From positions 1 to 64,000 of IMG/VR virus record IMGVR_UViG_3300032265_001314: a stretch of 64,000 nt of DNA, one strand, 5' to 3'. Position numbers and translations under genes: made by a program. Shown piece by piece: positions 24,179 to 24,250 of this stretch. The stretch is from a virus. Numbering within the stretch: position 1 is the stretch's first letter; every line of letters starts with the position of its first letter. The notes beneath the pieces were generated by a model. The model made no database searches. It saw nothing but the letters and a program-made list of their open reading frames with translations, and had not been told where the DNA came from.

Positions 24179-24250
24179 TGGCGCTCTGTATGGGAGTTGA
24201 ACCCATCCTTGCAGTTTTAGAATCTGCTAGCTCTCCGCGAGCAACAAAGC
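24179..24250 (-). tRNA. Compact amber-decoding tRNA (anticodon CUA), tRNA-Pyl-like
   Basis: 72 bases including encoded CCA. Acceptor GCTTTGT pairs with ACAGAGC (one G-U). Only one base (T) separates it from a 4-bp D stem, GCTC/GAGC, with a 5-base D loop. The anticodon loop is TTCTAAA, giving CUA; the stem core is GCAG/CTGC with A-A mismatches on both sides. The variable region is very short. The T-arm is ATGGG-TTCAACT-CCCAT. First pair G1-C72 and discriminator G73. The single linker base, 5-base D loop, short variable region, CUA loop and G73 are tRNA-Pyl traits; no PylS-like gene is in the window. The charging amino acid is not known. Confidence 0.8.

Follow-up and report, generated by a model that had tools for sequence, protein, structure and literature searches.

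A phage tRNA with a CUA anticodon very probably dedicated to one start-proximal UAG in a nearby gene

A phage genome from IMG/VR carries a compact tRNA with a CUA anticodon, and our analyses predict with high confidence that this is a dedicated amber-suppressor tRNA, selected for decoding a single start-proximal UAG in one gene and gating that gene. The gene sits 0.9 kb downstream of the tRNA. The window is the whole stretch of DNA that we analyzed (64,000 nucleotides of virus record IMGVR_UViG_3300032265_001314, here G000, which measures 91,271 bases in full), and its features are listed in Table 1. Without the tRNA, ribosomes starting at the ATG would end at the UAG, through RF1, after two amino acids, and no protein would be made. 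Once a host synthetase had charged the transcribed and processed phage tRNA, the UAG would be read as sense and a protein of roughly 190 residues would be completed. Because tRNA and gene share a strand and are usually adjacent, such a pair would form a coherent feed-forward (AND) gate, in which no protein appears before RNA products of the phage itself have accumulated. We infer the charging of the tRNA, its suppression in vivo and gating as its purpose from sequence. The phage-encoded permuted tmRNA and relatives of the gene in cultured Rhizobium, Sinorhizobium and Agrobacterium phages point to an alphaproteobacterial host.

Table 1 Features of the window and of related phage loci. L numbers are loci with their own coordinates; rows without an L number or phage name refer to the window.
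Feature	Position	Strand	Evidence
Suppressor tRNA, 72 nt, anticodon CUA, G73, encoded CCA	24179-24250	-	ARAGORN; Rfam tRNA 32.2 bits; compensatory changes in 5 orthologues
Putative amber-gated gene (ATG GCC TAG ATT GAA), 191 codons with UAG as sense	22741-23316	-	Open frame with TAG as X; homologues with start-proximal TAG
In-frame amber, codon 3, followed by A	23308-23310	-	A at +4 in all 67 distinct genes
Shine-Dalgarno sequence AAAGGAG upstream of the ATG	23325-23331	-	SD-like motif in 66/67 distinct genes
Bax1-I family membrane protein, between tRNA and amber gene	23357-24049	-	Pfam PF01027, 1.8e-56
Peroxiredoxin (AhpC/TSA), upstream of tRNA	24309-24863	-	Pfam PF00578
Permuted tmRNA, alphaproteobacterial type, phage-encoded	988-1352	-	ARAGORN, tag ANDNVATYEMALAA
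Glycosyltransferase and esterase-like frames, split only by in-frame TAG GTG ATG	31811-33376	-	TAG kept in G001
CHASE2 and adenylate/guanylate cyclase catalytic domain protein	34101-36152	-
Divergent-T-loop CUA tRNAs	L168 3334-3408; L187 3125-3199; L204/L212 3380-3454; L231 3234-3310
CUA tRNAs in tRNA clusters, phages without the amber gene	L304 1487-1561 (G055); L306 879-952 (G056)
UCA-anticodon tRNAs in further large phages	L305 2378-2455; L069 2676-2753
Phosso CUA tRNA (annotated as 'undetermined'), one small gene and 'serine-tRNA synthetase'	L290 2484-3643; Phosso 171983-173142
Second CUA tRNA of Phosso	near 446731 (L507)
Pth2 with start-proximal TAG or TGA	L236 2872-3366 (Phosso); L237 2918-3366 (Atu_ph07); L342-L346

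ARAGORN called the CUA tRNA at exactly 24179-24250 on the minus strand, and a local Rfam search with the covariance model RF00005 scored it at 32.2 bits, over the gathering score of 29; a whole-window Rfam scan at default filters missed it. Both results agree with the original prediction, which was made from the letters of the window. The sequence (GCUUUGU U GCUC GCGGA GAGC UA GCAGA UUCUAAA ACUGC AAGG AUGGG UUCAACU CCCAU ACAGAGC G CCA) likewise bears out the predicted CUA anticodon, single base between the acceptor and D stems, 5-nt D-loop, short variable region (4 nt), G1-C72, G73 and encoded CCA. The T-loop, described as near canonical, is fully canonical (UUCAACU), and the D-loop (GCGGA) includes a GG that had gone unmentioned. 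Two A-A mismatches had been proposed for the anticodon stem. One is present (A.A at 31.39, beside four standard pairs in a 5-bp stem), and the second arises only when a 6-bp stem is forced.

Judged by folding energy alone, the tRNA does not stand out (z -1.75). Orthologues of 72 nt occur in four related phages, and across five 72-nt orthologues 95% of the pairs are kept and 9 pairs are changed on both sides. Three stems (acceptor, anticodon and T) carry these compensatory changes, and the pairing signal is lost when the structure is slid. The GG of the D-loop and the UUC of the T-loop are retained in all five. The CUA tRNA is genuine, with a stop-codon anticodon in a cloverleaf backed by covariation, as a phage nonsense suppressor should have. 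A search of IMG/VR with the exact tRNA pattern gave no match at first, because the T-stem varies.

Most CUA tRNAs of related phages are ordinary in shape, with 73-78 nt and A73, and the compact D-arm with its 5-nt D-loop recurs in some branches only (e.g. L016). In 28 aligned CUA tRNAs the invariant core comprises G1-C72, C2-G71, the GG of the D-loop, U33 CUA A37 A38 and a good part of the T-loop. The CUA anticodon is kept despite widely differing tRNA bodies, and the discriminator base is either A or G. One divergent branch has the T-loop AUCGUUA or CUCGAUA, not UUCRANN, and ARAGORN types several of its members as Arg or 'Arg|Pyl'. Two other tRNAs (L239 and L254) are tRNA-Arg(UCU) by loop register and were left out of alignment A1. 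In Phosso, a Sinorhizobium phage, the CUA tRNA is followed by one small gene and then by a 250-aa 'serine-tRNA synthetase', possibly a private charging enzyme.

The original prediction had offered two readings, a tRNA-Pyl-like molecule or a new compact suppressor, and the second is the one that stands, with a UAG gene 0.9 kb away that the prediction had not noticed. ARAGORN names any CUA-anticodon tRNA 'tRNA-Pyl'. The likeness to tRNA-Pyl lies in the CUA anticodon, the single nucleotide that separates the acceptor stem from the D stem, the 5-nt D-loop, the short variable region and G73. However, tRNA-Pyl has a D-loop without GG, a T-loop without the usual UUC and an anticodon stem of six pairs, and the phage tRNA has none of these three traits. 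PylS (TIGR02367), the cognate synthetase, had no match in the phage itself, in line with its predicted absence from the window, and in 18 further phages, some related and some taken for comparison, nothing scored above the cut-off. The phage tRNA also has sisters of normal shape (the 73-78 nt family) and opal equivalents in sister phages. We rejected tRNA-Pyl identity on the lack of PylS in these 19 phages, the GG, the UUC and the ordinary sister tRNAs.

Reading TAG as sense lengthens the open reading frame 22741-23238 to 23316, with the start AAAGGAGAAATTATT ATG GCC TAG ATT GAA TTA ... The ATG follows a strong Shine-Dalgarno sequence, AAAGGAG, at a spacing of eight nucleotides (AAAGGAG-N8-ATG), the frame stays open to 22741, and its translation begins MAXIELVCKEAVFHFNKKHLEDSTVPMW... 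In the first homologues, from phages with CUA tRNAs, ATG and one sense codon are followed by TAG and then by the same protein. With the 67 conserved residues as the query, IMG/VR yielded 319 relatives, and TAG lies near the ATG in 80/80 of the best 80 of these; two of the 80 were scored automatically as AAA and have their TAG two codons further up. Among distinct homologues of this form (IMG/VR phages and Rhizobium phage RHph_I1_18), TAG follows shortly after the ATG in 67 of 67, in most of them as codon 3, and TAA or TGA was found in none, although TAG is the least used of the stops in these phages (6-14%). The phage thus carries the cognate stop of its tRNA in-frame inside a conserved coding sequence, as is expected where a nonsense suppressor has a target.

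The 23 codons from the TAG to the next Met differ between homologues mainly by synonymous or conservative changes, and 20 of the 64 distinct regions contain no ATG, GTG or TTG. In an AlphaFold model of the product (mean pLDDT 88.6), residues 2-13 form a confident strand (pLDDT about 93). Because this stretch is conserved and confidently modelled, we conclude from codon changes and model that it is translated in the amber frame, from 5' of any ordinary start. Termination at the UAG followed by re-initiation just downstream, for example at AUU, with the tRNA unrelated, could draw on the codon after the TAG, which is ATT in 62 of 67 distinct genes (ATC in 2, ATA in 2 and AAC in 1), and on the ability of AUU, on rare occasions, to start translation. 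We consider this very unlikely. In RHph_I1_18 the TAG is followed by AAC, and elsewhere by other codons. Moreover, re-initiation does not need UAG over UAA or UGA, yet UAG is used in 67/67, and it leaves the coupling to the tRNA and the TGA-UCA pairs (see below) unexplained.

The product of the amber gene had no sequence match in Pfam, PHROG or PDB and no match in bacterial genomes. Structure searches of PDB brought up no fold with confidence, and those of BFVD only uncharacterised or distant phage proteins. Three other frames are open with the amber gene's own start, two GIY-YIG-like (L388, L416) and one HNH-like (L360), and begin MA#IEY..., MS#IEY... and MA#... They are probably homing endonucleases, of types judged by eye, placed as if inserted directly behind the amber codon.

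The amber gene also occurs in a cultured phage. RHph_I1_18 (MN988519) has a short, unannotated version (ATG AGT GAG TTC ATG TAG AAC GAA ...) with a CUA tRNA 11 nt downstream. In Phosso and in the Agrobacterium phage Atu_ph07 the domain lacks the amber codon and is fused behind another region. These two were the only stopless copies of the domain among the loci pooled at that stage, and six further IMG/VR relatives (L342-L346, L354) have the fused form without amber. The pairing of gene and tRNA has been overlooked, in cultured phages as well, because gene finders end at a stop codon.

We profiled the co-occurrence of the amber gene and CUA tRNAs in loci found through the peroxiredoxin neighbour. 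The tRNA was present in 10/10 loci with the amber gene and in 2/70 without it (n=80; Fisher 4e-11, with kinship among loci ignored), and in whole contigs (n=43) the figures were 5/5 and 4/38. Among the best 80 of the 319 relatives, 76 contigs bear both; owing to partial redundancy and kinship among these loci, the counts are not independent events. In 61 of the 76 the tRNA is in the fetched locus, in 7 it is a divergent-T-loop tRNA upstream, in 7 it is elsewhere on the contig and in 1 it is at the contig end. Counting by locus alone (61/80) underestimated the tRNA, since ARAGORN gave the divergent branch the wrong type. No CUA tRNA was found on three fragments with the amber gene, two short ones (L167, L175) and one that starts 66 nt before the gene (L165); another (L214) starts inside a divergent-type CUA tRNA. 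The contigs are metagenomic, and the pairing is also present in complete genomes of cultured phages.

tRNA and amber gene are on the same strand in all 52 distinct measurable pairs, and in 31 of these the tRNA lies 21-314 nt upstream. In the window, the order on the minus strand is peroxiredoxin, tRNA, Bax1-I and amber gene, and no terminator-like site was found between tRNA and gene. Bax1-I does not always accompany the pair; in L004 and L005 it does not lie between the two. Suppressor and candidate target are co-oriented, close and plausibly co-expressed, the arrangement expected of a feed-forward gate. Not all CUA tRNAs in these phages belong to such a pair, and some occur without the amber gene (G055, G056 and the fragments G012 and G077). 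It is extremely improbable that the tRNA is decaying, or is a general translation aid, and that the nearby amber is coincidental. The low Rfam score (32 bits) and the A.A mismatch in the anticodon stem would suit such a tRNA, but compensatory changes in three of its stems, the coupling (10/10 against 2/70) and the amber codon in 67/67 homologues would not be expected of it.

A second, unrelated gene is arranged in the same way. In Phosso-like phages the stop is in a gene for a type-2 peptidyl-tRNA hydrolase (Pth2, PF01981), slightly upstream in the same gene cluster. Pth2 of Phosso starts ATG AAG TAT TAG GTT GAA, and that of Atu_ph07 starts ATG ATT GGC GAA CAC TTT TGA ATT AAT, with TGA as codon 7. 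The public Pth2 annotations of both phages begin at an internal Met in the hydrolase core, and the start of the domain is lost. A start-proximal stop is present in 7/7 members of this orthologous group (W02, W03, G078-G082), and other Pth2 copies of the same genomes have none.

The stop codon in Pth2 matched the anticodon of the tRNA in 6/6 phages, although six cases alone are weak (Fisher p = 0.1). TAG goes with a CUA tRNA in Phosso, G080 and G084 (in G084 the gene is a more distant Pth2-like one), and TGA goes with a UCA tRNA in Atu_ph07, G081 and G082. Two short fragments, G078 and G079, yielded no suppressor tRNA. A match between stop and anticodon is what decoding of the Pth2 stop by the tRNA would be expected to produce. 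Stop and anticodon have apparently switched together at least twice, between Phosso and Atu_ph07 and between G080 and G081/G082, as counted without a tree. The likely target of the Atu_ph07 UCA tRNA is its own Pth2.

Requirement for a special amino acid directed by UAG (pyrrolysine or another), in which case the tRNA would serve protein chemistry and not gating, is unlikely. Use in a single gene recalls Sec and Pyl, and the CUA anticodon, compact shape, G1-C72 and G73 are as in tRNA-Pyl. However, PylS was not found in the 19 phages, the discriminator base may be A or G, and the distance from the amber to the domain is not fixed: the number of codons varies, and some genes have extra codons after the amber (TAG ATC AAA ATT GAA in L204/L212). 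Pth2 is treated alike, with TGA and UCA as alternatives. We favor gating because the amber position is not fixed, a second unrelated gene is treated in the same way and opal can replace amber. Such a gate may serve to prevent early production of a protein that is harmful or whose timing is critical, and only Pth2, as the second client, hints at a link to translation quality control. It is likely that in large alphaproteobacterial phages a translational lock and key of this kind evolved more than once, in which a start-proximal nonsense codon on one chosen gene is paired with a suppressor tRNA dedicated to it, the standard code is retained elsewhere, and amber or opal codon and anticodon switch together.

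The gene for RF2 (prfB) is autoregulated by frameshifting at an in-frame UGA and senses RF2. There too an early stop codon controls the translation of its own gene, whereas in the phage the stop would be decoded by a tRNA, with no change of frame. A closer likeness is to the synthetic 'leak dampener' of E. coli, a suppressor-tRNA feed-forward design against leaky expression (PMC7969014), in which the regulated gene has one or more in-frame nonsense codons that are read only when a suppressor tRNA under joint control is produced; an opal version has been described too. That circuit is engineered, whereas the phage case is apparently natural, with the stop next to the start and with amber/opal swaps made by evolution. 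In the open-access literature we found such a device only as a synthetic circuit, and our results suggest it as a natural means of control.

They also offer a concrete target for phage suppressor tRNAs that are listed as 'tRNA-Pyl', 'SeC' or 'suppressor' without known use. The available part of the Atu_ph07 paper reports the UCA suppressor tRNA and suggests several potential targets, with none specified there (PMC6102473), and the available part of the report on Sinorhizobium phage AP-J-162 describes a CUA tRNA as 'tRNA-Pyl', with no target given there (PMC11242549). Both tRNAs are of the same kind as ours, and relative to these parts of the two reports a specific target is named only here. 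A gene family missed by annotation is exposed as well, together with the shortened Pth2 annotations in Atu_ph07 and Phosso. As cultured phages carry the pair, the question of why one gene would be locked is directly testable. Caulobacter crescentus CB15N, a laboratory alphaproteobacterium, is reported to have no natural suppressors (PMC3875453).

Stop-codon recoding by suppressor tRNAs in crAss-like and other gut phages has been proposed to time expression (PMC9523058, PMC10136315). There, as is predicted here, a phage-encoded stop-codon tRNA makes a stop sense, but in those phages the code is reassigned, with in-frame stops in many, mostly late genes, whereas our phage retains the standard code and has a single stop near the start of one gene. 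TAG ends 14/102 called genes in G000 (14%) and 14/112 in G001. Neither mark of genetic code 15, TAG near-absent as a stop and many in-frame TAGs, was found. The 14% of genes ending in TAG indicates that the code is not globally changed, and it implies that suppression would lengthen other proteins too. TAG stops are mildly scarcer near the amber gene (35/575, 6%) than in the sets compared with it (94/837 and 54/469, 11-12%), as expected if suppression is costly.

A global change with UAG as sense, as in crAss-like phages, could account for the CUA tRNA, the in-frame TAG and this mild shortage, but it is hardly credible beside the TAG stops of G000 and G001, and no second clear protein-like, conserved in-frame TAG was found in this phage except for one between two adjacent in-frame genes. 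That exception joins the glycosyltransferase and esterase-like frames (Table 1). We rejected it as a second readthrough gene, as it looks like two adjacent genes; an active tRNA could nevertheless produce a low-level glycosyltransferase-esterase fusion there. The same strand of the window also encodes a protein with CHASE2 and adenylate/guanylate cyclase catalytic domains.
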